The position numbers were made by a program, and so were the translations under genes. Under the pieces are notes generated by a model. That model was not told the origin of the DNA. It saw only the letters and a list, made by a program, of their open reading frames with translations, and searched no databases. A stretch of DNA of 64,000 nucleotides from Ruficoccus amylovorans (GTDB lineage: Bacteria; Verrucomicrobiota; Verrucomicrobiia; Opitutales; Cerasicoccaceae). Location of the stretch: NCBI RefSeq assembly GCF_014230085.1, contig NZ_JACHVB010000014.1, positions 62,001-126,000 on the forward strand, in the 5' to 3' direction. Numbering within the stretch: the stretch's first letter is position 1; each line of letters begins with the position of its first letter. Below are positions 6,760 to 59,747 of this stretch, one piece after another.

Positions 6760-7533
6760 TTAAACACGGTCCAGTGGGGCGGTGATGACGCGGATGCCTT
6801 GCTGGCGGTAGGGTTCCAGCAGGCCGGGGGCGGCGCGATCATCGGTCACGAGGACGTTGAGCTGGCGCGGTTGTGCGAAGATGAAGGGGCTCTTTTTCTC
6901 CAGTTTGCTGGAGTCGCACACGACGCAGATTTGCTCGGCGCGGGGGATGAGACGTTCCTTGAGCACTGCCTGGCCGGGGTTGACCTCGGAGGCCCCGATC
7001 TCGTGGTGAAGCCCGTCCACCCCGACGAAGAGCCACTTGATCATGTAGCGCTTGAGCGAATCCTCTGCCACCGCGCCGACGTAGGAGCGCGAGCGTTCCT
7101 CGTAGTTGCCACCGGTACAGATGAGGTCGTAGCCGGGGCGTCCGCCCAGGGCGACGATGACGTGGTGAGCATTGGTCAGGACGGTCAGCGGCACGGACGG
7201 CAGGTTGTCGCACATGGCCAGCACAGTGGAACTGGCGTCCATAAAGATGGTGTCGTTGGTGCCGACCAGTGCTGCCGCCGCCTGGGCGACGATGGATTTT
7301 TCGAACTGGTTGACACTCTGCCGGGCGGGCAGGGGAAGGTCGTGCCGGGAGTCGGAGGCTCGGGTGGCCCCGCCGTGGATGCGGATCACGCGCTTGGCCT
7401 CGGCCAGGGCTTCGAGGTCTTTGCGGATGGTTTCGTGGGTGACGTTGAAGGCGTCCGCCAACTCCGCGTTGGAGACGGAGCCTTCGGCCTCGATCCGGCG
7501 TAAAATCATTTCCTGGCGTTGGGCGGGGAGCAT
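6760..7533 (-). CDS. DeoR/GlpR-family transcriptional repressor, likely of the glycerol genes
   Basis: The 257-aa protein has the DeoR N-terminal helix-turn-helix: MLPAQRQEMILRRIEAEG, then VSNAELADAFNVTHETIRKDLEALAEAKRVIRIHGGA. The C-terminal sugar-phosphate-sensing (ISOCOT-fold) domain follows, with TIFMDASSTVLAM, TGGNYEE and FVGVDGLHHEIGASEVN. GlpR of E. coli has this architecture and responds to glycerol-3-phosphate. The gene is divergent from glpF-glpK-glpD, so a role as the local glycerol regulator is the natural inference. I chose ATG 7533 because it gives the standard family N-terminus; an upstream TTG at 7584 would add 17 unrelated residues. The inverted repeat at 7601-7618 is a candidate operator. 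Confidence 0.87.
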   Translation of the reverse strand: MLPAQRQEMILRRIEAEGSVSNAELADAFNVTHETIRKDLEALAEAKRVIRIHGGATRASDSRHDLPLPARQSVNQFEKSIVAQAAAALVGTNDTIFMDASSTVLAMCDNLPSVPLTVLTNAHHVIVALGGRPGYDLICTGGNYEERSRSYVGAVAEDSLKRYMIKWLFVGVDGLHHEIGASEVNPGQAVLKERLIPRAEQICVVCDSSKLEKKSPFIFAQPRQLNVLVTDDRAAPGLLEPYRQQGIRVITAPLDRV

Positions 7534-7600
7534 CGCGATAAATAAATCTGTCCTCCATTCTGGGGATAAAATTGGAAAATGCAAGTCATGCGCTTTGGAT

Positions 7601-7618
7601 AACTTGCGATTGCAAGTT
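7601..7618. promoter_or_regulatory. Candidate GlpR operator, AACTTGC-N4-GCAAGTT
   Basis: A perfect 7-bp inverted repeat with a 4-bp spacer lies between the divergent repressor and glpF. A further half-site GCAAGT is at 7581-7586. Position and symmetry fit an autoregulatory operator; binding is inferred. Confidence 0.5.
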
Positions 7619-7667
7619 CTGCTCCCTTTAAGCCCAGAACAGTCGGTAGCTTGGGATCGGTGCAGTA

Positions 7668-7693
7668 GGGTTTTCTTGTGAAACCCAATTTTT
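7668..7693. other. Small hairpin GGGTTT/AAACCC with trailing T run in the glpR-glpF spacer
   Basis: GGGTTT (7668-7673) pairs with AAACCC (7681-7686), followed by AATTTTT. It looks like a weak terminator or a second protein-binding site upstream of the glpF promoter. The function is unknown. Confidence 0.3.
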
Positions 7694-8653: not shown

Positions 8654-10162
8654 ATGTCCAAAGACCAATATATTATCGCCCTGGACCAGGGCACGACCAG
8701 CTCCCGCTCCATTGTTTTCGACCACAACGGCCATGTCGTGGCGGTCGCACAAAAGGAGTTTCGCCAAATCTACCCCAAGCCGGGCTGGGTCGAGCACGAC
8801 CCGATGGAGATCTGGTCCAGCCAGAGCGCAACGGCGGCCGAGGCGATTTCGCGGGCGGACCTGACCACCGACTGCATCGCTGGAGTCGGGGTGACGAATC
8901 AGCGCGAAACCACCATCGTCTGGGACAAGGACAGCGGGCGGCCCGTTTACAACGCCATCGTCTGGCAGGACCGCCGCACGGCGGACTACTGCCTCAAGCT
9001 GAAGGAAGAGGGGCTCGAACCGATGGTCACGGAAAAAACCGGCCTGCGCCTGGACCCGTATTTTTCGGGGACGAAGGTGCGCTGGATCCTGGAAAACGTC
9101 TCCGGCGCGCGCGCCAAGGCCGAGGCCGGGAAACTGCTTTTTGGAACGGTGGACAGCTGGTTGATCTGGCAGTTGACAGGGCGCAAGGTCCACGTCACCG
9201 ACGTAACCAATGCCAGCCGTACGCTGTTTTATAATCTGGAAAAGGACGATTGGGACGACGACCTGCTCAAGCTCTTCAACGTGCCCCGCTGCATGTTGCC
9301 CGAGATCCGCTCCAGTTCCGAAGTTTATGGTGAGGTCCAAAAGAACCTCTATCCCGGCGGCGCGTCCATCTCGGGCATCGCCGGTGACCAGCACGCCGCT
9401 CTCTTCGGGCAGGCGTGCTTCAGCCCCGGTATGGCCAAAAACACCTACGGCACCGGTTGCTTCCTGCTCATGAACATGGGCGACAAGCCCGTGCGCTCGA
9501 AGAACAACCTGCTCACCACGGTGGCCTGGCGCATCGGGGGAAAGACCGAGTACGCGCTGGAAGGTTCGGTCTTCATCGGTGGGGCGGTCGTGCAGTGGAT
9601 TCGCGACGAGGTGCAGCTCGTGCGCACCGCGCAGGAGCTGGACTGGCTCGCCTCCACCGTCAAGGACGCCGGCGGCCTCTTCCTCGTGCCCGCCTTCGCC
9701 GGACTCGGTGCCCCGCACTGGGACCCGTACGCCCGGGGCGCGGCCCTTGGCATCACCCGTGGCACCAATCGTGCCCACATTTGCCGGGCGGCCCTGGAGT
9801 CGATCGCCTTCCAAAGCGCGGACCTGCTCTCGGCCATGGAAAAAGACAGCGGGCTCAAGCTCAAGGAACTGCGCGTGGACGGTGGGGCTTGCCGCAGCGA
9901 CCCGCTTTTGCAGTTCCAGGCGGACTTGCTCCGCACGTCCGTCGTGCGGCCCAAGTGCATTGAAACGACCGCTCTGGGAGCGGCTTACCTGGCCGGGCTC
10001 GCGGTCGGCTTCTGGGAGAGCCGCGACGCGATCACCGAGCGCTGGGAGATGCAGCAGGAGTTCAAACCCGAGCGCTGCGACGAGGAAATGGCCCAACTGC
10101 GCAAGGGCTGGGACAAGGCCCTCGAACGTGCCAAGAACTGGGAGGAAGCTGAGGCGGAATAA
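8654..10162 (+). CDS. glpK: Glycerol kinase
   Basis: The 502-aa FGGY-family kinase phosphorylates glycerol to sn-glycerol-3-phosphate, trapping it in the cytoplasm. The N-terminal ATPase block is [19 protein letters not shown], and the family motifs [11 protein letters not shown] and GVTNQRET are intact. [12 protein letters not shown] and the C-terminal [19 protein letters not shown] follow. Length and motif order match GlpK rather than other FGGY kinases such as xylulokinase. It follows glpF by 92 bp and precedes glpD by 62 bp, both on the same strand. The 92-bp leader is pyrimidine/A-rich, poor in G and lacks a Shine-Dalgarno motif. Confidence 0.97.
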
Positions 10163-36690: not shown

Positions 36691-37209
36691 ATGGGAGAGT
36701 CAACGGAAACTCCCGCGGACTACCTGATTGCCCAGGCTTACGCCTTTTGGCGGACCAAGGGCAGTTCCGTCACTGTGGTGCGGAAGATTATCTGTGAGGT
36801 GGCGCTGCGGGCCGAGGATGCCTTTGATGCCGAGACGCTGCTGGCGCGTTGCCGCTGTGAGGACAGCCAGATTTCACTTTCCACGGTTTACCGCACGCTC
36901 GGGCATTTGGTCGAGGCGCGTGTCCTGCACGAGGTTCAGGGCGTTGGGGAGAAGAAGTGCTACGCCCCGGCTACCTCGCAGTACGCCGGACAGAGCCACG
37001 TCGTGTGCCAGGATTGCAAGCAGGTTTTTCCGCTGGAGGATCCCTGTCTCGTGCTGCGGGAAGGGGCGCTGGCCCGCAAGCAGGGGTTCAGCCCGAAAAA
37101 TGTCAGTCTGCGTCTGGAGGCCAGTTGCGATCAGTTGAACGAACTGGGCATCTGTGACCGTAAAAAGAATGGATCTGACAAAGGCGCGAAGAGCGGACAG
37201 GGGTCCTGA
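36691..37209 (+). CDS. Fur-family transcriptional regulator (Fur/Zur/PerR type)
   Basis: The 172-aa protein has the Fur winged-helix N-terminus (TVVRKIICEVALRAEDAFDAETLLARCRCEDSQISLSTVYRTLGHLVEARVLHEV). The dimerisation domain carries a zinc site: HVVCQDCKQVFPLEDPC and the second Cys pair in ASCDQLNELGIC. The DNA-reading helix SLSTVYRTL is typical of the family. The HHxHHH-type histidine cluster of iron Fur is reduced here (only SHVVC), so the sensed signal (Fe, Zn, peroxide or other) cannot be named. It is coupled to the unknown helical protein upstream and is followed by an intrinsic terminator. Confidence 0.86.
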   Translation: MGESTETPADYLIAQAYAFWRTKGSSVTVVRKIICEVALRAEDAFDAETLLARCRCEDSQISLSTVYRTLGHLVEARVLHEVQGVGEKKCYAPATSQYAGQSHVVCQDCKQVFPLEDPCLVLREGALARKQGFSPKNVSLRLEASCDQLNELGICDRKKNGSDKGAKSGQGS

Positions 37210-37994: not shown

Positions 37995-40523
37995 ATGAGT
38001 GAAAAAGCCCAACCCACCTATGCGAAAAAACTGCGCCTCGTCGTCATCGGCGGAGTGGCCGGCGGCGCGTCCGCCGCTGCCCGTGCCCGCCGCCTGAGCG
38101 AGGACGCCGAAATTATCGTGATTGAGCGCGGCCCGGACGTGTCGTTCGCCAACTGCGGACTGCCGTACCACATCGGCGGCGAGATCCAGGACCGCGGCAA
38201 GCTCGCGCTCCAGACCCCGGCCACCCTCAAGAGTATGCTCCGGCTCGACGTGCGCAATCTGACCGAGGCGCTCGACATCGACCGCGAAGCGCACACCGTG
38301 CGCATCCGCAACGTCGAGACCGGGGTGGAGGAGGACCTCGCCTATGACAAGCTCATCCTTTCGCCGGGGGCCTCGCCGCTGACGCCGCCGCTACCCGGCA
38401 TTGAGCTGCCCGGCATCTACACGCTGCGCAACTTGCAGGACATGGACCAGATCAAGGAGGCCGCTGCCGAGGCCCGGCATGTGGCCATCATCGGGGCGGG
38501 CTTTATCGGTCTGGAAATGGCCGAGCAGCTTATCCATCTGGGCAAGGAGGTTGCGCTGGTCGAACTGGTGGACCAGGTGCTGCCGCAGATGGACAAGGAC
38601 ATGGTGCAGGCGGTGGAGGAAGATCTGCGCGAACACGGGGTCGAGCTGATCCTGGGCGACGGGATCGACGGTTTTGAAAAAATGTCCGACGGCCTCCGGG
38701 CCAAGCTCAAGTCGGGCCAGAAGCTGGAGACGGACATGGTGATCCTGTCCATCGGCGTACGCCCTGAGAACGCGCTGGCCAAGGCCGCCGGGCTGGAACT
38801 GGGCGCGCGCGGCCACATCGTGGCCAACGCCTGGATGCAGACTACCGACCCGGACATTTACGCCGTCGGCGACGCCTCGCAGACGACCGACCCGATCCTT
38901 GGCGGTCCTACCGCCATTGCCCTCGGTGGCCCGGCCAACCGGCAGGGCCGCACCGCCGCCGACCACATTTTCCTCGGAGACAAAGCCCAGCCGTATCCCG
39001 GCTCCATCGGCACCTCCATCGTGCGGGTCTTCGATGTGGCCGCGGGCGTGACTGGTTTTACCGAAAAGCGTCTTCGGCAGGCCGGGGTCGATTTTGGCAA
39101 GACCGTGGTGAGCGATTTCGACCACGCCAGCTATTATCCGGGGGCGACGCACCTTACGCTTAAAATCCTCTGGGACAAGGCCGACGGACGCCTTCTGGGC
39201 GGTCAGGCTTTCGGCGCCAACGGCGTGGACAAGCGCCTCGACGTGCTCGCCACCGCGATCAAGGGCAAGCTCACGGTTGAGGAACTGGAGCACCTGGAGC
39301 TGGCCTACGCGCCGCCTTTCGGCTCGGCCAAGGATCCGGTCAACATCGCCGGTTTCTCCGCCAACAACATCCGCAGCGGCTTTGTCCAGCCGGTCTATTC
39401 GCTGGCGGAGTCGCCCGCCAACGCCCAGGTCGTGGATGTGCGCCCGCCGGAGATGGTTGCCCTCAAGGCCATCCCCGGCGCGATCAATATCCCGTATCCG
39501 CAGTTACGCGACCGCCTCGGCGAACTCGACCCGGCGCGCCCGGTGGTGACGATTTGCGCGCTGGGCAAGACGAGCTACTTCGCCGCCCGCGTGCTGGCGC
39601 AGCGGGGCTTTGACGCCTTCGCCCACGTCGGTGGGGCCAAGGTTGAGCCGTCCGTCCAGCAGGTCGAGCAGCCGAAGCTGCCCGCCGGTCCCTCCTGTTG
39701 TTCGACCCCGGCGGCCCCCTTTGTGAAGGCCGCATCGGCTGAGTCCGACGAAGAGGTGGTCAAGCTCGACGCCACCGGGATGGCCTGCCCGGGGCCGATC
39801 CTGCGGGTGAAAGAAGCCGCCACCGCGCTCAAGCCGGGGCAGGTGCTCGAAGTGCGCGCATCGGACGCCGGTTTCAAGAACGATTTGCCCGCCTTCTGCC
39901 GCGCCAACGGCTACGAATGCCTGAGCGTGCAGAAGGACAAGGGGGTGGTGGTCGGTCGCCTGCGCCTTTCCACCGACGTGCTGCCTGCCGGGTGGCGTCC
40001 GTCCGGTTCGCCCGCCCGCAGCGGGGGAGGGGCCTCCGGCCCGCGCAACGGCGCGACACTGGTCTGCTTCTCTGGCGACCTGGACAAGGCGATGGCCACC
40101 TTTATCATCGCCAACGGCGCGGTCGCCATGGGCGGCAAGGCCACGATCTTTTTCACCTTCTGGGGCCTGAACGTCCTGCGCAAGGACGTCGCGCCCGCAT
40201 CCGCCGTTGAGGGCAAGAGCTTCATGGACAAAATGTTCGGCTGGATGCTCCCGCGCGGTGCGGACAAGCTCCCGCTCTCGCAGATGCACATGGCCGGGAT
40301 GGGCACCCGCATGATGAAGGACCGCATGAAGTCCAAAAACCTCCCGAACCTGCTCGGCCTGATGGAAGAGGCGAAAAAGGCCGGAGTCCGGCTGGTCGCC
40401 TGCACCATGTCGATGGACGCGATGGGCATCCGTGCCGAAGAGCTGATCGACGGGGTCGAGTTGGGCGGCGTGGCCGAGTTCCTCGGGGCCTCCGGCGATA
40501 CCGGGACGAATTTGTTTATCTAA
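37995..40523 (+). CDS. Four-domain fusion: CoA-disulfide reductase, rhodanese, TusA, DsrE-like
   Basis: The 842-aa protein joins four sulfur-handling domains. Residues 1-460 are a FAD/NAD disulfide oxidoreductase of the CoA-disulfide reductase type (LVVIGGVAGGASAAARARR; active Cys54 in FANCGLPYHIGG). Residues 465-555 are a rhodanese with Cys521 in TICALGK. Residues 590-660 are a TusA domain with Cys598 in TGMACPGPILR. Residues 680-842 are a DsrE/YrkE-like domain with Cys803 in LVACTMSMDAMGI. Together they could reduce polysulfides or CoA persulfides and pass sulfane sulfur along the cysteines. Each domain is known alone and in partial fusions. ATG 37995 is used; the longer frame from 37650 overlaps arsR. 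It follows arsR and is followed by a repeat and nusA. Confidence 0.92.
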   Translation: MSEKAQPTYAKKLRLVVIGGVAGGASAAARARRLSEDAEIIVIERGPDVSFANCGLPYHIGGEIQDRGKLALQTPATLKSMLRLDVRNLTEALDIDREAHTVRIRNVETGVEEDLAYDKLILSPGASPLTPPLPGIELPGIYTLRNLQDMDQIKEAAAEARHVAIIGAGFIGLEMAEQLIHLGKEVALVELVDQVLPQMDKDMVQAVEEDLREHGVELILGDGIDGFEKMSDGLRAKLKSGQKLETDMVILSIGVRPENALAKAAGLELGARGHIVANAWMQTTDPDIYAVGDASQTTDPILGGPTAIALGGPANRQGRTAADHIFLGDKAQPYPGSIGTSIVRVFDVAAGVTGFTEKRLRQAGVDFGKTVVSDFDHASYYPGATHLTLKILWDKADGRLLGGQAFGANGVDKRLDVLATAIKGKLTVEELEHLELAYAPPFGSAKDPVNIAGFSANNIRSGFVQPVYSLAESPANAQVVDVRPPEMVALKAIPGAINIPYPQLRDRLGELDPARPVVTICALGKTSYFAARVLAQRGFDAFAHVGGAKVEPSVQQVEQPKLPAGPSCCSTPAAPFVKAASAESDEEVVKLDATGMACPGPILRVKEAATALKPGQVLEVRASDAGFKNDLPAFCRANGYECLSVQKDKGVVVGRLRLSTDVLPAGWRPSGSPARSGGGASGPRNGATLVCFSGDLDKAMATFIIANGAVAMGGKATIFFTFWGLNVLRKDVAPASAVEGKSFMDKMFGWMLPRGADKLPLSQMHMAGMGTRMMKDRMKSKNLPNLLGLMEEAKKAGVRLVACTMSMDAMGIRAEELIDGVELGGVAEFLGASGDTGTNLFI

Positions 40524-48918: not shown

Positions 48919-51186
48919 TCAAAAGAACGGGCTGCGTTCCATGATGGAGAGGTCGAGCGCTTTGATCATTTCCCGGCAGTTGCGGGCCTCGGTGGTCAAG
49001 TCGGTGTAGCGGCGCACGAGCGCGAGAAATACGGCCACATCGCCGGCGGCGATGGAGCGGTTCAGGTGCTCCTTGCGGAGCATGGCTGTCAGCTCATGCG
49101 TGAGCTGGCTTACCGGTGTATCCAGGTCCGGATACGTGGTGGAGGCCTGGCCGTTCTCGAAAGTCCGCTCGAACTCGTCAAGTGTCTCCTGCAGGCGCTG
49201 GTTGAGCTCGATCAGGGTGGGTGCCATGCGCTCGGCCAGAACAGGGGCCATCGGGCGGCGGATGGCGCGTTCCAGCGCCTGCAGGCGGAAGCGAAACCCT
49301 TGCAGACACAGGGAAAGCTGCCGGTATTTACCGCGTTGGGGTTCATCGGACTTGTGGAGCCCGATCTGGCTGACCCATTCCTGGCAGGCGCCGGGCAGAT
49401 CGACGAGACGCGTCTCCAGCGAACCGACGACGGCGATGGGGGCCTCGCCCCGCAGCACTTGCGGCGTGTAGAGGTCGAGGTAGTTGCGGCAGTCCTTGAA
49501 AAAGGTTTTCAGAGTCGAGCGCAACTGGTGCTCAGGGATGACGGGCCAGATCAGGCGCAGGACGATGGCACAGACCATGAAGCCGAGCAAAATGCCCAGC
49601 AGTCGCTCGATGCCGGGTTCCAGCGAGATGTCCTGCTTGTTGGAGACTGAGGTCATCAGCAAAAAGGCGAGAAAAGCCTGGAACCCGGCGTAGGAGTAGC
49701 GGGCCGGACCGTAGTTGATCAGGGTGAAGACCATGAAGCACAGGAACAGAACGGGGGCCAGCTCCTCGAAGGTTTCCAGGTGCGGGGTGACGGTGAGCAG
49801 GAAGAACGCCGCCGCCGTGCCTCCGAGCAGGCAGCCGCCCAGCCGGAGCATGGATTTCTGATTGCTGGCGACGACGGTTTTCTGGATTAGGATTGAGGCC
49901 GTGATAACGCCCGGTACGCCGCCAGGACACTGTGTCCACTGCCATAGGTAGAGCGTGCCCAGCACGGCCACGCCGACCTTGATCCCGTGCTTGAGGCGCA
50001 TCGGGTCCGGCCTCCAGCGCGCCTGATTTCGCCGGACGCGTTCCTTGACTTCGCGCCGTTCGCGGCCGGGCTGGAGGATGGCCACGGCGGCCTTGCGCAA
50101 GAGCATGACCACGCGCTCGATTTCGGCCAGGTTGGCATAGTAGGCCATGAAGGCGGTGGTGTCGCTGAGCTCATAGCGCAGCGGCGTGTCGCTGGCGCGA
50201 AGCGCTTCGAGGTGCGTCTGGAGCGCGGCGTGGGCGTCCGGGGCGACTGCCGGAGGCAGCGGGGCGGGGGAGGCGAAAAAGTTCGCCAGCGCGCACAGTT
50301 CGGCCCGGAGTGCGTCGGTGTAGGCGCGCAGCTCGGTGCTGAGGTTTTCCTGGTAGTGCCGGGGAAAGTCGCCCTGCGTCGAGTGCAGGGTCGTTACCAC
50401 GGAGACGAACGTGCTCTCCATGAACTGCAAGGCCCCCTGAATACTCGTGCGGTGGTTGGAAAAGCGGCTGGAGTCGAGCATGGCCTGCGGGAGCAGGGCG
50501 CGCAGCTTGGGGAAGTCGCCGCTGAGCTTTTCGCTCAGCTTGCCGGAGTCGGGGAGCTTTTCGCCGTAGCCGCTGTAGGAGGCGGTCGAGTGGTCAAAGA
50601 GCCGTATGCAGTCCTTGAGCGTAGTGGACATCTGACGGCCCATTTCACGGCTGGCGCTCTGGGGCCACAGCAGGGAGTTGACGGTGAGCGCGACGATGAC
50701 TCCGAGGCTGATTTCCGACACCCGGAAAAAGACTACCGGCCAGAGTTGGTCCAGATTGTTGAAGACCTGGGCGTTGATAATGGACAGGGTGATCCCGCTG
50801 AGGAAAAACGCATAGGGGTAAAATTTGCCCGTGCCCATGTAGCCGGTGAAAACCAATATCCCGAAAAGCATGGCGGCGTATCCGAACTGGTTCTGCGGAA
50901 ACGCGCCGCAGATCAGGTACGAAACGGCTCCGGCGAACAGCGTGCCGATGAGCCGCATGATGCCCTTTTCCAGCGAAGCCCCGATGTAGGGCAGGGTGGC
51001 CACGAGCACGGAGATACCCGCCCAGTAGGGATTTTCCCAGCCCAGGCCCATCGCGATCCCGATGGCGATGACCGAGGCCAGCGACGCCTTGAACGCCGTC
51101 AGCCAGCGCAGTTTATTCAGTTTCGGCCAGTGCCAGCGCCCGGTGACGGCGCCTGTGCTTGCGGCTATGGATTCAAGAACGGCCAT
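48919..51186 (-). CDS. FUSC-family efflux membrane protein (AaeB/YccS-like)
   Basis: This protein of about 755 aa has two hydrophobic blocks. The first (about residues 25-170) includes AFKASLASVIAIGIAMGLGWENPYWAGISVLVATLPYIG. A long soluble helical region follows, and the second block (about 390-530) starts HGIKVGVAVLGTLYLWQWTQCPGGVPGVITASILIQ. This is the FUSC layout of AaeB, which exports aromatic carboxylic acids together with the membrane-fusion protein AaeA. The divergent DUF1656 and AaeA-like genes complete an Aae-like set, so it is the likely permease of that pump. ATG 51186 leaves 53 bp for divergent promoters; ATG 51219 would leave only 20 bp. Confidence 0.86.
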   Translation of the reverse strand: MAVLESIAASTGAVTGRWHWPKLNKLRWLTAFKASLASVIAIGIAMGLGWENPYWAGISVLVATLPYIGASLEKGIMRLIGTLFAGAVSYLICGAFPQNQFGYAAMLFGILVFTGYMGTGKFYPYAFFLSGITLSIINAQVFNNLDQLWPVVFFRVSEISLGVIVALTVNSLLWPQSASREMGRQMSTTLKDCIRLFDHSTASYSGYGEKLPDSGKLSEKLSGDFPKLRALLPQAMLDSSRFSNHRTSIQGALQFMESTFVSVVTTLHSTQGDFPRHYQENLSTELRAYTDALRAELCALANFFASPAPLPPAVAPDAHAALQTHLEALRASDTPLRYELSDTTAFMAYYANLAEIERVVMLLRKAAVAILQPGRERREVKERVRRNQARWRPDPMRLKHGIKVGVAVLGTLYLWQWTQCPGGVPGVITASILIQKTVVASNQKSMLRLGGCLLGGTAAAFFLLTVTPHLETFEELAPVLFLCFMVFTLINYGPARYSYAGFQAFLAFLLMTSVSNKQDISLEPGIERLLGILLGFMVCAIVLRLIWPVIPEHQLRSTLKTFFKDCRNYLDLYTPQVLRGEAPIAVVGSLETRLVDLPGACQEWVSQIGLHKSDEPQRGKYRQLSLCLQGFRFRLQALERAIRRPMAPVLAERMAPTLIELNQRLQETLDEFERTFENGQASTTYPDLDTPVSQLTHELTAMLRKEHLNRSIAAGDVAVFLALVRRYTDLTTEARNCREMIKALDLSIMERSPFF

Positions 51187-51239
51187 GCTGAAATAATTCG
51201 CATTGTCATTAACCGCCATTGGCGTGATTGTAAACGCCG

Positions 51240-51497
51240 ATGATTATGGATTTGGTGGAGCGTCTGTCCAGTGTCGTGCCGCCGCAGTGGCGGTTGCCGG
51301 CGGAGATCGACTTTTTGGGCTTTTACCTGACACCCATCTTCGTCGTCCTCCCGCTGGGAATTCTTCTGGCCGGGGTGACCGTCTGGCTCGTTGACCGTGC
51401 CCGGCTGACGCGTTTTATCTGGCATCCGCCGCTGTTCCTGTTTTCGCTTGCCATCATCTACGGGGTGACGCTGTCCCTGCTCTTTATGCCAGCCTGA
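51240..51497 (+). CDS. DUF1656 small membrane protein (AaeX-like)
   Basis: The 85-aa protein has two membrane spans (FYLTPIFVVLPLGILLAGVTVWL and PPLFLFSLAIIYGVTLSLLF) and the DUF1656 pattern (EIDFLGFYLTPIFVVL). AaeX-type proteins accompany FUSC exporters and AaeA fusion proteins; their role is not known. It ends 11 bp before the membrane-fusion/binding-protein chimera and is co-transcribed with it. ATG at 51240 or 51246 (MIMDLV) is possible. Confidence 0.82.
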   Translation: MIMDLVERLSSVVPPQWRLPAEIDFLGFYLTPIFVVLPLGILLAGVTVWLVDRARLTRFIWHPPLFLFSLAIIYGVTLSLLFMPA

Positions 51498-51508
51498 CCG
51501 CTGTTCGT

Positions 51509-53443
51509 ATGCTCAAGAAGATTATCAAAGTCGTTGTGACGCTCTGCGCCGTGGCCCTGGCCGGTATCCTCGCCTGGGCCTACTGGCATCAGTACCTGCT
51601 CAACCCCTGGACCCGCGATGGTCAGGTGCAGGCCTATGTGGTCGGCGTGGCCGCCCGCGTGAGCGGCCCGATGATCGACGTGCCGGTGCAGGATAACCAG
51701 TTTGTCAAGCGCGGGGACCTGCTCTTTGTCATCGACCCGACCGACTATCAGCAGGATGTGGACGGAGCCCGCGCCGCGCTCAACAAGGCCGAAACCTCCG
51801 CCGAGCTACTGAAGCTCGAGATCGAGCGTCGGACTCCGCTGTTGGCCCAGCAATTGATTTCGGTCGAGGATTACCAGATACTCCAGGCCAAGTACGCCGA
51901 GGCGCTGGCCGACATCGAGGTGGCCGTGGCCTCTCTGCAACTGTCTGAGCTGAACCTCAGTTACACACGGGTCTATGCCCCGGTAGATGGCTACGTGACG
52001 AACCTCGTGGTCACGACCGGCACCTACGTGACCAAGGGCCAGCCGCTCATGGCGCTGGTCGATGCGAACGATTTTTGGGTCACAGGCTATTTCCGCGAAA
52101 CCGACCTCAAGGGCGTGCGCCCCGGCAAGCGTGCAGAAGTGCGCTTCATGGGCCACTACGACGAGCCGCTCGACGGCGTGGTTCAGAGCGTGGGGTGGGG
52201 GATATTCCGCGCCGACGGGGCCGAGGGGCAGAATCTTTTACCGGTCGTCGCGCCAACGGTGGACTGGGTCCGGCTGGCCCAGCGCTTCCCGGTGCGGGTG
52301 CACCTGCTCAATCCCCCGGCGGACCTGCCGCTGCGTGTTGGGACGACGGCCTCCGTGCTCATCCTGCCGGACGCGGTGGAGTACGCGCAGATTCCGGACA
52401 ACACTCCGACGTTGACCGACGGGCGCGGGGACCCTGTCGCCGTGCCGGAGTATGCGCGGCGTATCGTCAGTCTGGCCCCGAGCACCACCGAGCTTGTTTA
52501 CGCGCTGGGCGCGGGGGACCGCTTGATCGCGGACACGGAATTTTGTCGCTACCCGGTGCAGGCCCTGGCCTTACCCAAGGTGCAGGGGTTTGACTCGCCC
52601 AATGCCGAGGCCCTGCTTGAACTGAACCCCGACCTGGTTCTGGTCTCGGACATCACCCGTCCGGACACGGTGAAGCGTCTGCGCGACCTGGGGCTGTGTG
52701 TCTTTGTCCTGCCTTCCAAGGGCCTCGACGGGTTGGTTCGCGACATCGAATTGCTGGGCAACGTCCTCGACCGCGATGAGCAGGCGGCGGACCTGCTGGC
52801 CTCCTTTGAGCTGCTTCGCGCCAGCCTGGCCATGCGCTTCGCGGGGCTTCCCGAGGAGGAGCGGCCCCGGGTTTTTCTCTCGTATGGAGCGCTGGAAACC
52901 TACACTGCCGGGCCGGGGACGTTCCCGGACCAGTTGATCCGTGAGGCCGGAGGGCGCAACATCGCGGCGGGCGTCAAGGGCGAGTGGGTGGAGCTTTCGC
53001 AGGAGACACTGGTCGAGAGCGACCCGCAGGTTATTCTGTTGCCGGGCGATATTTCGCAACCGGTCGAGCAGGCCGGAGAGCTGCTGCTCGCGCGTTACCG
53101 GGCGGACCCGGTCTGGAGCAAGCTCGATGCCGTGCGTACGGGGAGGATTTTTATTATTGATAATACCCTGTTCAACATCCCCGGACCGCGCCTGACCGTG
53201 GCGCTGGAGGCGTTGGCCGATACGTTTCATCCCGCCTCGCCGGAGGCGGAAGAAGAAAGCGGCAGCCCGTCACCGGCCAGTGCAGAACCCGCCGAAGCCC
53301 CCACCGCCGCCGAGGGGATTAGCCCGGAAGTGTTCGCGCAACCGGGCGATCCGGATCAGGACCCGTCTGGCATCTTTACTGCGCCCGCCTCGGAGGCGGA
53401 CCTGCTGACTCCTGCCCCGGCTGGCGTGGACAAGGCTCCGTGA
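51509..53443 (+). CDS. Membrane-fusion protein (AaeA/EmrA-like) fused to a BtuF-like periplasmic binding domain
   Basis: The 644-aa chimera has an N-terminal membrane anchor (residues 6-28). A HlyD-type adaptor follows: biotinyl-lipoyl half motifs VSGPMIDVPVQDNQFVKRGDLLFVIDP and LSYTRVYAPVDGYVTNLVV, a coiled hairpin at 85-150, and a beta-barrel to about residue 287. From about 315 to 575 runs a complete class III helical-backbone binding protein of the BtuF/FhuD type (RRIVSLAPSTTELVYALGAGDRL, CRYPVQALALPKVQGFDSPN, EALLELNPDLVLVSD, YTAGPGTFPDQLIREAGGRNIA). The last 70 residues are acidic and Pro/Ala-rich. No second signal peptide or frameshift sign is seen at the junction. BtuF domains bind cobalamin, heme or metal chelates for import, so their coupling to an exporter adaptor is unexpected. 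The ligand is unknown. Confidence 0.85.
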   Translation: MLKKIIKVVVTLCAVALAGILAWAYWHQYLLNPWTRDGQVQAYVVGVAARVSGPMIDVPVQDNQFVKRGDLLFVIDPTDYQQDVDGARAALNKAETSAELLKLEIERRTPLLAQQLISVEDYQILQAKYAEALADIEVAVASLQLSELNLSYTRVYAPVDGYVTNLVVTTGTYVTKGQPLMALVDANDFWVTGYFRETDLKGVRPGKRAEVRFMGHYDEPLDGVVQSVGWGIFRADGAEGQNLLPVVAPTVDWVRLAQRFPVRVHLLNPPADLPLRVGTTASVLILPDAVEYAQIPDNTPTLTDGRGDPVAVPEYARRIVSLAPSTTELVYALGAGDRLIADTEFCRYPVQALALPKVQGFDSPNAEALLELNPDLVLVSDITRPDTVKRLRDLGLCVFVLPSKGLDGLVRDIELLGNVLDRDEQAADLLASFELLRASLAMRFAGLPEEERPRVFLSYGALETYTAGPGTFPDQLIREAGGRNIAAGVKGEWVELSQETLVESDPQVILLPGDISQPVEQAGELLLARYRADPVWSKLDAVRTGRIFIIDNTLFNIPGPRLTVALEALADTFHPASPEAEEESGSPSPASAEPAEAPTAAEGISPEVFAQPGDPDQDPSGIFTAPASEADLLTPAPAGVDKAP

Positions 53444-53541: not shown

Positions 53542-54033
53542 ATGAGTCTGGATAGTTTTCTGCAAAACCTGCGTTCGCTGGCCGAGTTTATTTTAAAAGT
53601 GCCGTACGGGACGGGGGCGTTTTATCTGCTGCTGGGGGTGGTGCTGTTTTCGCTGCTGATCGTGGGCAAGCTGATGTCGTCGGCCTTCGGTGGGGGCAGC
53701 CGGGGCTTTGTGCCGGTGTTCCTCTCGCAGGTGATCGTGGTCGTGCTGGCCCTGGCTTGCGCGGCGTTGACGCAGACTCTGCTCGCGCCGCAGGTCAACA
53801 GCGTGCCCCTGCTGCACGGCTCCATTATCGCGGCGGCGGCGATAGGGGGCGTGATCGGCGTCCTGATGACCAGCCGTCTGCTGCTGGGGGTCGTGCCGGG
53901 CGTGGGGATTGTCATCACCCTGCTGACCCTCGCGCTGAGCTACGGCGTGCTCTGGGGGGCGGAAAAGCTTCTCCATTCCGTGGGCCAAAGTGAGCAGATA
54001 ATTGAGCAGTATCAGGCGCGTGTGGCGGAATAA
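53542..54033 (+). CDS. Four-span membrane protein of unknown function
   Basis: The 163-aa protein has about four hydrophobic segments (GAFYLLLGVVLFSLLIVG, FLSQVIVVVLALACAAL, IIAAAAIGGVIGVLMTS, VPGVGIVITLLTLALSYGVLW) and short polar ends. I do not recognise a family. It lies 98 bp after the chimera and 94 bp before lutA on the same strand, so it could belong to either unit. The probable promoter before lutA suggests that it belongs to the upstream one or stands alone. Confidence 0.65.
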   Translation: MSLDSFLQNLRSLAEFILKVPYGTGAFYLLLGVVLFSLLIVGKLMSSAFGGGSRGFVPVFLSQVIVVVLALACAALTQTLLAPQVNSVPLLHGSIIAAAAIGGVIGVLMTSRLLLGVVPGVGIVITLLTLALSYGVLWGAEKLLHSVGQSEQIIEQYQARVAE

Positions 54034-54127: not shown

Positions 54128-54904
54128 GTGACTAACCCCCAACGCACTGTTCCCGCTCCGAAAAAAGTCCAACTCATGGCCACCTGCCTGTGCGACGCGT
54201 TTTTTGACGACGTTGCCGTGGCCACCGTCCAGGTGCTGGAGTACCTGGGGGTCGAGGTTGGCTTCCCGGCTGACCAGACCTGTTGCGGCCAGCCCGCTTT
54301 CAATGCCGGAGACTGGAAAGCCTCGCGCAAGGTCGTCCGCCACGTCGTGGATACCTTCAAGGGCGAGGACCCGGTCGTGGTGCCATCCGGCTCCTGCGCG
54401 GCCATGCTCTTTCACGGTGCGCTGCTGGAGTTTGAAAATGAGCCCGACCTGTCCGAGGTCAAGCAACTGGCCAACCGCTCCTGGGAACTGCTCGACTACA
54501 TCGTCAACGGCCTGGGCGTGAGGGAGTGGCCCGGCTCGTTTCCACACCGGGTGTCCTTTCACCGTTCCTGCCACCTGCGCGGGACGTGCAGCGGCCCCGC
54601 CGCCATGAATCTGATGAAGTCCATCGACGGCCTGGAGTTGGCTACCTTTGGCGAGGCCGAGCAGTGCTGCGGCTTCGGCGGGGCGTTCTCGGTCAGCCAC
54701 CCGAATATTTCGGCCCGTATGGGCGAGCTGAAGCTTGAGCACATCATCGCCGCGAACCCCGAGTACCTCGTCGCAGCCGACATGGGTTGCCTGCTCCATC
54801 TCGGGGGCATTGTGGACAAGTCCGGGATCGAGCTTCCGCGGCTGCACGTGGCGCAGGTGCTGCGCGACGCCCTTGTCTCCGCCAACCTTTTACCCGCCGC
54901 CTGA
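54128..54904 (+). CDS. lutA: Lactate utilisation protein A, CCG-domain Fe-S oxidoreductase
   Basis: This 258-aa protein carries two cysteine-rich CCG motifs, QTCCGQPAFNAGD and EAEQCCGFGGAFSV, which bind an iron-sulfur or related cluster in this family. With LutB and LutC it oxidises L-lactate to pyruvate. The N-terminal strand KKVQLMATCLCDAFF matches LutA/YkgE. That strand requires the GTG at 54128 as start, because a stop codon lies at 54119-54121 in frame; ATG 54176 would cut off conserved residues. It overlaps the spacing of lutB (2 bp between stop and start). Confidence 0.92.
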   Translation: MTNPQRTVPAPKKVQLMATCLCDAFFDDVAVATVQVLEYLGVEVGFPADQTCCGQPAFNAGDWKASRKVVRHVVDTFKGEDPVVVPSGSCAAMLFHGALLEFENEPDLSEVKQLANRSWELLDYIVNGLGVREWPGSFPHRVSFHRSCHLRGTCSGPAAMNLMKSIDGLELATFGEAEQCCGFGGAFSVSHPNISARMGELKLEHIIAANPEYLVAADMGCLLHLGGIVDKSGIELPRLHVAQVLRDALVSANLLPAA

Positions 54905-54906
54905 CC

Positions 54907-56313
54907 ATGCCGACCAAGACCCAGCAGGACATCGACCGCTACGCCCGCGACCTCAACCCCGAGGTTTACACCTCGGTGTACGGCGGGACCAAGGCGACCA
55001 CGGAAAAGCGCCACGACGTGCTTTTCCACGACTACCCGGACCCGGACCTGCTGCGGCGTACGGCGGGCGAGGTCAAGCAGCACACGCTGGAAAACCTCGA
55101 TACCTACCTGCCCAAGGCGGAGGCCGCGCTCAAGGCCAACGGGGCGCAGGTGCACTTCGCCGCCGACGGCGACGCCGCCAACCGCATCATCCTTGAGATC
55201 ATGAAGGCCAACGGGGCCAAGAGCATGGTCAAGTCGAAGAGCATGGTCAGCGAGGAGACCGGCCTGGGCCACTTCCTCGAAGACAACGGCATGAAGTGCC
55301 TGGAAACCGACCTGGGCGAGTTCATCATCCAGATCGACCACGACCACCCGTCGCACATCGTCAAGCCCATTGCCCACAAGAACCGTCGCGACATTGCCAA
55401 GAGCTTCGAGCGCGAGGGGTTGGGCGACTACAATGACGACCCGGCCACCATCACCCGCCGGGCGCGCGAATTCCTGCGCGGCAAGTATTTCGAGGCCGAT
55501 GTCGGCCTGACGGGCGCGAACTTCGTCTCCGCCGAGAGCGGACGGCTCGCCATCGTGACCAACGAGGGCAACGCCCGCTTCTGCATGGCCGCGACTCCGA
55601 TCCACATCGGCATCGTCGGGATCGAAAAACTCATCCCGCACGACCGCGACCTGGCGCTGTTTACCTCGCTCATCGGACGCTCCGGCACCGGCCAGCACCT
55701 GACCGTTTACACGCAGTTCATCAACGGTCCCAGGCGCTTCGGCCAGCCCGATGGCCCCGAGCAGATGCACGTGGTTTTCGTCGATAACAAGCGCACGGAA
55801 GTGCTCGCTTCCAATTGCCGGGAAATCCTGCGCTGCATCCGCTGCGGCGCTTGCCTGAATGTCTGCCCGGTGTACCGGCAGGCCAGTGGCCACGCCTACC
55901 GCAGCGTCTATCCGGGACCGGTTGGCGCGGTGCTCAGCCCGCTGCTGGCGGGCACGCGCTTCCCAGAGCTGGCTGACCTGCCCAAGGCGTCCAGCCTCTG
56001 CGGCGCTTGCAACGAGGTCTGCCCGGTCAATATCCCGATCCCCGATCTGCTTCTGCGCCTGCGTGACAAGGCCAAGACCGAGCACGCGGGCCGGGCCATG
56101 AAGGGCACCCCGCCGATGGGGATGTACGGCCTGCTGGCTAGCCAGCCGCACGCCTGGCGCGCCGCCATGACGATGGGCGCGGCCATGAACCTGACCCCGA
56201 ACGCCGTCATGAACATCATCCCTCCGGCGGCGGCCTGGAACTCCTGCCGCCAGCTCCCGAAGTGGCGCGGCGGCAAATTCCGCCACTGGATGAAAGAACG
56301 CGGCAAAAACTGA
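54907..56313 (+). CDS. lutB: Lactate utilisation protein B, iron-sulfur subunit
   Basis: The 468-aa protein has the LutB N-terminal domain (GANFVSAESGRLAIVTNEGNARF and the GTGQHLTVYTQFINGPRR segment) and two [4Fe-4S] motifs near residues 310-375 (CIRCGACLNVCPVY and CGACNEVCPVNIP). It is the electron-transfer subunit of the LutABC lactate oxidase. ATG 54907 lies 2 bp after the lutA stop; a longer frame from 54787 runs inside lutA and is discarded. The C-terminus contains an Ala/Met-rich segment before a basic end. Confidence 0.94.
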   Translation: MPTKTQQDIDRYARDLNPEVYTSVYGGTKATTEKRHDVLFHDYPDPDLLRRTAGEVKQHTLENLDTYLPKAEAALKANGAQVHFAADGDAANRIILEIMKANGAKSMVKSKSMVSEETGLGHFLEDNGMKCLETDLGEFIIQIDHDHPSHIVKPIAHKNRRDIAKSFEREGLGDYNDDPATITRRAREFLRGKYFEADVGLTGANFVSAESGRLAIVTNEGNARFCMAATPIHIGIVGIEKLIPHDRDLALFTSLIGRSGTGQHLTVYTQFINGPRRFGQPDGPEQMHVVFVDNKRTEVLASNCREILRCIRCGACLNVCPVYRQASGHAYRSVYPGPVGAVLSPLLAGTRFPELADLPKASSLCGACNEVCPVNIPIPDLLLRLRDKAKTEHAGRAMKGTPPMGMYGLLASQPHAWRAAMTMGAAMNLTPNAVMNIIPPAAAWNSCRQLPKWRGGKFRHWMKERGKN

Positions 56314-56338
56314 TCAACCCCGAATACTTTACCGGACA

Positions 56339-56956
56339 ATGCAAGACGATCGCGAACTGGTCATGTCGAGAATCCGCGAGGCGCTGGCCCCGCTCAAGGA
56401 ACGGGCGCAGTACCCCGAGTACGACCCGGAGCTTCCCGTGTGCCGGGCGCACCCGGAGTTCGCGGACGACTGGGAGCTTTTCAGCCATAAAATGAAGCAG
56501 GTCAACGGCACGCCGCTCAAGGGACTCGACGCCCTCGGCCAGTGGCTGGCACAGCAGGGCTTCAAACTCGGCTACTGCGACCCGGCGCTGGTCGAGACGG
56601 TCAGGGCGCATCCCGCTTTCGCCGGGATCACGCTGGAGACGACTTTCGAGCGCTCGCGGGTGGACGACTACACCTTTGGCATCACGCAGGCCTCGGGCGC
56701 CATCGCCGAGACCGGCAGCATCGTTCTCAAGGACAGCGAAACCTCGTCCCGCCTCGGCGCGCTCGCACCCTGGACACACATCGCGATCCTGAAGCGCGCG
56801 CGACTGTATCCGGATTCCATTACAGCGATCAGCCACTTCGGTGATGATCCGTCGATCATCTGGGCCACCGGCCCCTCAAAGACCGCCGATGTGGAGGGCA
56901 TCCTCATCGAGGGTGTGCACGGTCCCGGTGTGCAGGTCTGCTGCCTGCTGGATTAA
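56339..56956 (+). CDS. lutC: Lactate utilisation protein C
   Basis: The 205-aa LutC/YkgG-family protein contains the conserved GITQASGAIAETGSIVLKDSET and IIWATGPSKTADVEGILIEGVHGP. It completes the lut operon 25 bp after lutB. LutC has an NagB-like fold and no metal cysteines. A GAGGGCCTGACC block shortly after the stop (near 56966) recalls the start of the 3'-end repeat described elsewhere, but the match is short. Confidence 0.93.
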   Translation: MQDDRELVMSRIREALAPLKERAQYPEYDPELPVCRAHPEFADDWELFSHKMKQVNGTPLKGLDALGQWLAQQGFKLGYCDPALVETVRAHPAFAGITLETTFERSRVDDYTFGITQASGAIAETGSIVLKDSETSSRLGALAPWTHIAILKRARLYPDSITAISHFGDDPSIIWATGPSKTADVEGILIEGVHGPGVQVCCLLD

Positions 56957-58931: not shown

Positions 58932-59075
58932 AGCGGTAAATAAAGTAGTCAGCGTACTTATCTGTAGGGAAACTAACGCTTACGCCGATAGCAGTGCAAG
59001 CCTGATTCCTGATCGGTGGCAAAAGGCGTTTTTTTGATTTTTCCTTCACAGGGATTCCCGCTAGGGTGCGCCCTT

Positions 59076-59747
59076 ATGAGTACCTTCAGACCGGCGACGC
59101 TGTCCGACCAGATCTACCGCGAGTTGCAGCGGCGCATCTTGCGCTGTGAGCTGGCTCCGGGGGAGCGTCTGGTCGAAAAGGCACTCTGCGAGGAGCTGGC
59201 CGTGTCGCGCGCCAGCCTGCGGGAGGCGCTTAACCGGTTGGCCCAGGACAAGCTCGTTACGCTCAAGCCCAACTGCGGCTTCAGCGTCACCCCGATCACG
59301 ATTGAGAGCTTCCGCAACGTGTGCGAACTGCGGCGCGTGGTCGAGTCGCAGGTCGCGGCGCTGGCCGCCGAGCGCGCCACTCCCGCCGACATCGCGCAAA
59401 TGCGCCTGAGCGCGGTGGTCGATTGCGCCTTCGACGACAAGGACGCCTTTGCGGTTTATTGTGAGAGCAACCGCGCCTTTCACCAGAGCATTGCCGAGTG
59501 CATCGACAACCTTCTGCTGGAGGACATCGTACTGGCCGCGCTCGACAAGGACCAGCAGCCCATTTACTACGGGATCGATATCTCGGTCTGCACGCGTCCG
59601 CTCGATGTGACCGCCGAGCACCTGGCTATCGTTGACGCTATCGAGGCCCGTGATCCGGCCCGTGCCCGCGACCTGATGGCCCAGCATATCGGTAAAAAAG
59701 AGGACCGCATCCTCGACGCCCTCAAAGCCAAAGACATCCCAGCATGA
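59076..59747 (+). CDS. GntR-family transcriptional regulator (FCD subfamily)
   Basis: The 223-aa protein has the GntR winged helix (LSDQIYRELQRRILRCELAPGERLVEKALCEELAVSRASLREALNRLAQDKLVTL). A helical FCD ligand-binding domain follows, with VCELRRVVESQVAALAAER, NRAFHQSIAE and AEHLAIVDAIEARDPARARDLMAQHI. FCD members usually sense organic acids. The lactate genes lie 2 kb upstream, but there is no direct sign that this regulator controls them. Its stop overlaps the nth start (ATGA). ATG 59076 gives the normal start. Confidence 0.9.
   Translation: MSTFRPATLSDQIYRELQRRILRCELAPGERLVEKALCEELAVSRASLREALNRLAQDKLVTLKPNCGFSVTPITIESFRNVCELRRVVESQVAALAAERATPADIAQMRLSAVVDCAFDDKDAFAVYCESNRAFHQSIAECIDNLLLEDIVLAALDKDQQPIYYGIDISVCTRPLDVTAEHLAIVDAIEARDPARARDLMAQHIGKKEDRILDALKAKDIPA

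Follow-up and report, generated by a model that had tools for sequence, protein, structure and literature searches.

We confirm that an export-pump adaptor and a periplasmic binding protein form a real chimera in Ruficoccus amylovorans, and that the same fusion is present, in one open frame, in all ten genomes of the family Cerasicoccaceae (Verrucomicrobiota) that we examined, representing four genera. The chimera consists of an AaeA/EmrA-type adaptor followed by a BtuF-like class III substrate-binding domain, and it is encoded beside the other parts of a FUSC-type pump. Within the window, by which we mean the whole 64-kb stretch of DNA analysed, the fusion gene, its parts and its two neighbours are placed as follows.

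48919–51219, minus strand: FUSC (AaeB/MdtO-like) permease, 766 aa, divergent; PF04632, E 9.4e-62
51240–51497, plus strand: DUF1656 (AaeX-like) small membrane protein, 85 aa; PF07869, E 1.3e-12
51509–53443, plus strand: fusion of AaeA/EmrA-type adaptor and class III substrate-binding domain, 644 aa, one uninterrupted frame
51509–52369, plus strand: adaptor (membrane fusion) domain, residues 1–287, with an N-terminal TM helix, lipoyl/barrel domains and an alpha-hairpin at 78–151
52370–52417, plus strand: linker, residues 288–303, 16 residues
52418–53233, plus strand: class III substrate-binding domain, BtuF-like, residues 304–575, PF01497
52607–52609, plus strand: Glu367, equivalent of the first permease-docking glutamate of BtuF, invariant in 10/10 fusions
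53003–53005, plus strand: Glu499, equivalent of BtuF Glu202, the second permease-docking glutamate, invariant in 10/10 fusions
53234–53440, plus strand: Pro/Ala-rich C-terminal tail, residues 576–644, disorder predicted from 586

Pfam recognises both halves of the 644-residue chain. The adaptor half matches HlyD_D23 at residues 45–228 (E 6.1e-15), HlyD_3 at 155–230 and Biotin_lipoyl_2 at 47–76, and the C-terminal half matches Peripla_BP_2 (PF01497) at 319–552 (E 6.4e-29), over positions 1–233 of the 235 in the model. There is one hydrophobic segment at the N-terminus of the fusion. The linker ranges from 16 to 61 residues among the ten family members and has in none of them a signal peptide, cysteine or lipobox of its own; nor was a hydrophobic stretch found in the linker and the 40 residues that follow it (best 19-residue Kyte–Doolittle mean 0.07–1.06 across the ten). 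The AlphaFold2 model of the fusion has a mean pLDDT of 83.1, with both domains mostly above 80 and low values at the loop 231–256 and in the tail, 586–644; the linker is without predicted structure, and the pTM of 0.52 leaves the relative orientation of the two domains open. The long Pro/Ala-rich tail is limited to three of the four genomes of the genus Ruficoccus (R. amylovorans, G001 and G002). The original prediction of one continuous chain with two complete domains, joined by a short in-frame linker without a second signal peptide, thus holds, as does its description of the surroundings, with the DUF1656 stop 11 bp upstream of the fusion start and the FUSC gene divergent. Its start at 51186 was too early: the frame spans 51509–53443, and the stretch 51186–51508 contains the DUF1656 gene.

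The cassette recurs together with the fusion, a recurrence that had been proposed as a check: DUF1656 lies directly 5′ of the fusion in 10/10 family genomes and a divergent FUSC gene beside it in 9/10, the exception being G005, where the closest counterpart of the G004 FUSC gene (48% identity) is found on another contig, unlinked to the fusion. Beyond the family, we searched overlapping samples of the order (372 genomes), class (384) and phylum (387), considering full-length profile matches with E up to 1e-30 (order) or up to 1e-40 (class and phylum) and scoring the best three candidates per genome, by which a weak or convergent fusion could escape; the 10, 6 and 5 fusions found were all from Cerasicoccaceae, and in these samples the matches from outside the family covered one half only. 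A scan of GTDB contigs, covering 80 of 252 confirmed loci, found the binding domain in six of the 80, every one Cerasicoccaceae. Unusually long frames in three genomes (G330, G486 and G780) were considered as further fusions and rejected, as no adaptor sequence was seen 5′ of their binding domain; by eye, the residues ahead of that domain resemble a signal peptide or lipobox.

The circumstances named at the outset as fatal to the idea, two separate genes behind a frame error or a chimera occurring only once, are ruled out by the open frame in ten of ten genomes and by the FUSC gene beside the fusion in nine. An assembly artefact, or a neutral fusion in decay, is to our minds scarcely credible. 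The binding domain does evolve faster than the adaptor, its identity to the R. amylovorans fusion ranging within the family over 33–76% versus 58–87%, as such an explanation might lead one to expect; on the other hand, the frame is open across the four genera, three cultured Cerasicoccus strains (C. arenae, C. frondis and C. maritimus) among them, and the codon positions show constraint on the binding domain and none on the tail. In comparison with G002, differences at codon positions one, two and three number 24, 16 and 103 over the 287 codons of the adaptor and 48, 45 and 133 over 275 codons of the binding domain, and 30, 32 and 47 over 65 codons of the tail; the comparison with G001 gives the same pattern. 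Both domains are under purifying selection, the adaptor half being the more conserved, and the linker and tail are unconstrained.

The adaptor half carries the AaeA signature, PWTRDG(Q) at residues 33–39, and the RLS-type residues R107, L111 and S118 at the hairpin tip, all of them invariant in the ten fusions. The RLS motif of MexA is given as R119, L123 and S130, and thus with the same spacing, in PMC4446572, where its conservation among adaptors is said not to be absolute; judged by these residues, the adaptor of the fusion keeps the motif for docking on the outer-membrane channel. Foldseek places EmrAB–TolC first for the adaptor half (E 1.9e-22), a fold match to EmrA/AcrA. NCBIfam scores reach 226.6 bits for MdtN and 202.9 bits for AaeA, both under the curated cut-offs, and the EmrA equivalog cut-off is also missed; the permease scores 75.2 bits with MdtO, again under the curated cut-off. 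Of the parts that mark a FUSC/AaeAB-type system, the FUSC permease, DUF1656 and the adaptor are present, the last complete with its TM helix, a hairpin and the RLS residues at the tip. The cassette of FUSC, DUF1656 and fusion contains no gene for an outer-membrane channel (OMF), and no FecCD or HemS homologue occurs in the 64-kb window or at the fusion loci of the nine relatives, in agreement with the earlier statement that BtuCD-like genes are absent nearby.

In phylogenetic trees, the fused adaptors form one clade (support 100/99) and so do the fused binding domains, with support of 81/87 when all rows are included and of 100/100 only against the HmuT-like group; the branching order within the fused clade is the same in both trees, some of the adaptor nodes being weak. 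Single clades and matching branching order fit one fusion event followed by vertical descent. The binding-domain tree singles out no nearest standalone neighbour of the fused clade. More can be said about the recipient: at 12 loci with an unfused AaeA, picked from the best matches in the class, FUSC is present in 11, divergently so in seven as read from the coordinates, and DUF1656 in ten, and a binding-protein homologue was found in none of the 12 within the stretches fetched. Since these class relatives have a similar cassette with an unfused adaptor and no binding-protein gene, the domain was added to an existing pump.

The domain so added has a complete two-lobed class III fold. Its best sequence match in the PDB is the BtuF of Vibrio cholerae (E 2.2e-23), ahead of iron and heme proteins. 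In VIA-align it reaches Z 23–27 with proteins that bind heme, iron, siderophores or B12 (24.1 for BtuF, 1n2z; 26.8 for 2r7a), and the fold comparison does not tell binders of heme, of B12 and of siderophores apart. With the NCBIfam BtuF model NF002894 it scores 86.5 bits against a cut-off of 234, and the IsdE cut-off is likewise missed; it does pass the cut-off of NF038402, a general model named helical backbone metal receptor. In the Cerasicoccus copy (L032), the heme model IsdE scores above BtuF (87.2 versus 62.3 bits). Given the missed cut-offs and this reversal, "BtuF-like" describes a tendency and is not an assignment.

Two residues of the domain deserve closer attention. By alignment with V. 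cholerae BtuF, E367 and E499 fall on the permease-docking glutamates, which PMC3741162 prints as Glu74 and Glu202 of BtuF, and they are the only two of the 20 glutamates of the fused domain to be invariant in all ten fusions. Their presence in 21/22 and 22/22 standalone relatives of the order, respectively, and in 10/10 HmuT-like proteins of the family indicates that they were inherited, and what counts is their retention. Two further positions set the fused domains apart from the HmuT-like proteins of the family: position 346 is Cys in 10/10 fusions and 18/22 standalone order relatives and Ser in the ten HmuT-like proteins, and position 493 is Trp in 10/10 fusions and 21/22 standalone order relatives and Tyr or Phe in the ten HmuT-like proteins.

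These HmuT-like proteins belong to the only other locus of the kind in the family. In each of the ten genomes, PF01497 matches two proteins and no more, the fusion and a standalone HmuT-like protein, and there is a single full-length FecCD permease. A HemS/ChuX homologue lies beside the HmuT-like gene in all ten, and the FecCD permease and an ABC ATPase adjoin it in nine; in G003, they are on different contigs. From its content, with the Pfam names taken from G004, we take the locus to be a heme importer of the HmuTUV kind. Further FecCD matches in the family genomes are partial and weak (E 4e-14 or worse) and were taken for ABC-3-type permeases; matches to the TonB-receptor plug number one to six per genome. 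The sole full-length FecCD permease is part of a heme importer that already has a binding protein, so we found no second importer for the fused domain to serve.

With the docking glutamates retained and a single full-length FecCD permease in each genome, the fused protein might be a tethered importer receptor, its adaptor serving as a membrane anchor and its binding domain docking through E367 and E499 on the permease of the heme importer. The permease would then have another binding protein besides the HmuT-like one, and with it another ligand, and the export and recapture of a chelator could share one scaffold. Lipoprotein binding proteins, too, are held by an N-terminal flexible tether. The ratio of two PF01497 proteins to one full-length permease in every family genome agrees with such sharing, as does the conservation of both glutamates in the fusions, their standalone relatives and the HmuT-like proteins, the docking role of the BtuF glutamates being stated in PMC3741162. 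However, the permease is encoded at another locus with an HmuT-like partner of its own, from which the fused domain is distant: the two fall in separate clades and differ at position 493 (Trp versus Tyr/Phe). Moreover, for anchoring, a lipid would do the job more simply than an entire pump adaptor under strong conservation, and the two glutamates may have been kept for contacts with something else, such as FUSC. All considered, we find the importer receptor somewhat unlikely, but it is the chief rival to the explanation favoured below.

The origin of the domain can be approached through its standalone relatives. Of 17 such loci with wider flanks, 12 lie near a homologue of a TonB receptor (7), a BtuC-type protein (6) or DUF4465 (3), counts that include self-matches, the flank query proteins having come from three of the 17 loci; the other five have none of the three. 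B12-specific markers are few, with DUF4465 at 3/17 and a cobalamin riboswitch at 1/17, there in two copies. DUF4465 proteins, one from Coraliomargarita akajimensis among them, bind B12 according to PMC13398666. Together with the neighbourhoods of the standalone relatives, this suggests that the fused domain is probably derived from a TonB/BtuCD-type uptake system, perhaps one for B12, and B12 is at most suggested as its ligand. The fused loci themselves have no link to BtuCD or to a cobalamin riboswitch: no riboswitch match passes the threshold in the window, at nine fusion loci or anywhere in the ten family genomes, three of which have weak matches (27.6, 24.6 and 24.6 bits against the threshold of 31.5). 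The 27.6-bit match (L211, G000:C60:94942-95100) is 5′ of a gene resembling an AspT-type transporter. The riboswitch-bearing standalone locus is that of the order relative G031 (L033), where two cobalamin riboswitches (7485–7682 and 8833–9014, minus strand) stand ahead of DUF4465 genes, and the binding protein that scores nearest to the fused domain lies further downstream.

For the function of the chimera, we tentatively favour, at a little short of an even chance, a binding domain that, held on its tether, captures a ligand in the periplasm and offers it to the FUSC exporter; in this, the assembly, the binding and identity of the ligand and its outward transfer are all what we infer. The FUSC permease, the DUF1656 protein and the adaptor, presumably with a TolC-like channel encoded elsewhere, would form the pump, and several copies of the binding domain, on flexible linkers, would ring it near the inner membrane. 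The domain might bind a metallo-tetrapyrrole, a corrinoid or a metal chelate in the periplasm and either raise its local concentration at the permease and adaptor or hand it over, and the ligand would then be expelled through the channel. Three things lead us to prefer capture for export: the components of the pump are intact and linked, the binding domain joined a cassette that already existed, and we found no importer dedicated to this domain. It has its difficulties, however. The two importer-docking glutamates are kept, which is what continued docking on an importer permease would predict; characterised FUSC/AaeAB pumps export small aromatic acids, whereas the ligands of BtuF-like domains are large; and the cassette lacks an OMF gene, with FUSC itself unlinked in G005. 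Of the capture-and-expel device originally proposed, the fused chain, the recurrence of the genes and the absence of BtuCD-like genes stand, while capture and expulsion are still a proposal, the invariant importer-docking glutamates leaving room for delivery to an importer in trans.

Ligand binding could also act as a sensor or gate, altering the activity or assembly of the pump, with the domain delivering no cargo. Binding-protein domains do serve elsewhere as sensors: a class III domain forms part of Btr, the bacillibactin regulator, by its model name a transcription regulator (NCBIfam match NF049932). Adaptors can also stimulate their transporter, according to PMC4446572. Still, a linker that varies between 16 and 61 residues without constraint fits a tether better than rigid allosteric coupling, and we deem sensing unlikely. 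The same variable linker, without predicted structure, might instead be a site of cleavage after export, leaving a free adaptor and a free binding protein that the fusion merely serves to make; as the linker itself carries neither signal peptide nor lipobox, this strikes us as highly improbable. Capture for export has a more specific form, too, in which the system is a dedicated exporter of a large metallo-cofactor such as a corrinoid, and a binding protein formerly of B12 uptake, captured by an efflux adaptor, loads the pump. We regard it as quite improbable; if true, it would make the cassette a candidate for a dedicated bacterial route of cobamide release, a process that is poorly understood.

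To our knowledge, class III binding proteins work in one direction, normally feeding importers of vitamin B12, heme or iron, and adaptors of efflux pumps, those of metal pumps excepted, have no large ligand-binding domain of their own. A conserved single chain of the two lets one ask whether the binding protein of an importer can load an exporter, an uptake-type part having seemingly been wired into an export machine. If the transfer is outward, FUSC pumps gain a mechanism of substrate capture and we gain a handle on their natural substrates; if it is inward, export and recapture are built on one scaffold. Among open-licence PMC papers, we found no such fusion of an adaptor with PF01497. The original claim that no described system has this architecture survives in regard to the class III domain and the FUSC pump, but in a wider sense it has precedents. 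SilB of Cupriavidus metallidurans is, according to PMC4446572, a heavy-metal RND adaptor with a C-terminal CusF-like metallochaperone domain; as here, the C-terminal end of a pump adaptor carries a domain that binds a ligand in the periplasm and is found elsewhere as a protein by itself. SilB, however, works with an RND pump and has a small metal-binding beta-barrel, whereas our fusion has neither, carrying a two-lobed class III domain (PF01497) of about 270 residues and associating with a FUSC permease. The second precedent, FpvF of Pseudomonas aeruginosa, is described in PMC6954188 as binding apo-pyoverdine and contacting PvdT of the PvdRT-OpmQ pump in a two-hybrid assay, with a proposed role in bringing apo-pyoverdine to PvdT for recycling. 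There, too, a periplasmic binding protein is linked to an export pump, but the proteins are separate, the pump is of ABC type and the importer FpvDE is in the same gene group; the Cerasicoccaceae have one chain, a FUSC pump and no own importer that we could find.

The two parents of the fusion can be compared in the same way. AaeXAB and MdtNOP of Escherichia coli share with it the FUSC permease, DUF1656 (AaeX) and the AaeA-type adaptor, yet their adaptors end after the barrel, and the 29 unfused relatives that we aligned have at most 39 residues after the match. With BtuF and the other class III proteins it shares the complete fold and the docking glutamates, but the fused domain is C-terminal to an export adaptor, has no signal peptide or lipobox and is without a cognate BtuCD found in the family genomes. 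New, then, are a class III binding protein as the fused domain, FUSC as the pump and the conservation of the combination within one bacterial family; a ligand-binding domain at the C-terminus of an adaptor is already known from metal pumps.

Other features of the window were noted in passing. Upstream of the cassette, a 172-aa ORF at 36691–37209 (plus strand) resembles, by eye, a regulator of the Fur family. The Rfam model V_AS7, a Vibrio antisense RNA, matches at 38050–38218 (minus strand) with 94.4 bits against a threshold of 90, antisense within a 957-aa ORF that by eye resembles an NADH oxidase/rhodanese/TusA multidomain protein; the hit probably arose by chance, from a coding sequence that is conserved there. 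On the 3′ side of the fusion, a 163-aa ORF (53542–54033, plus strand) has no Pfam or NCBIfam match, and ORFs of the same length, matched on length only, are also 3′ of the fusion in G001 and G003. It is followed by a cluster of lactate-utilisation type (54128–56953, plus strand) with CCG, LUD/LutB_C with 4Fe-4S and LUD domain proteins and, further on, by a GntR/FCD regulator at 59016–59747.
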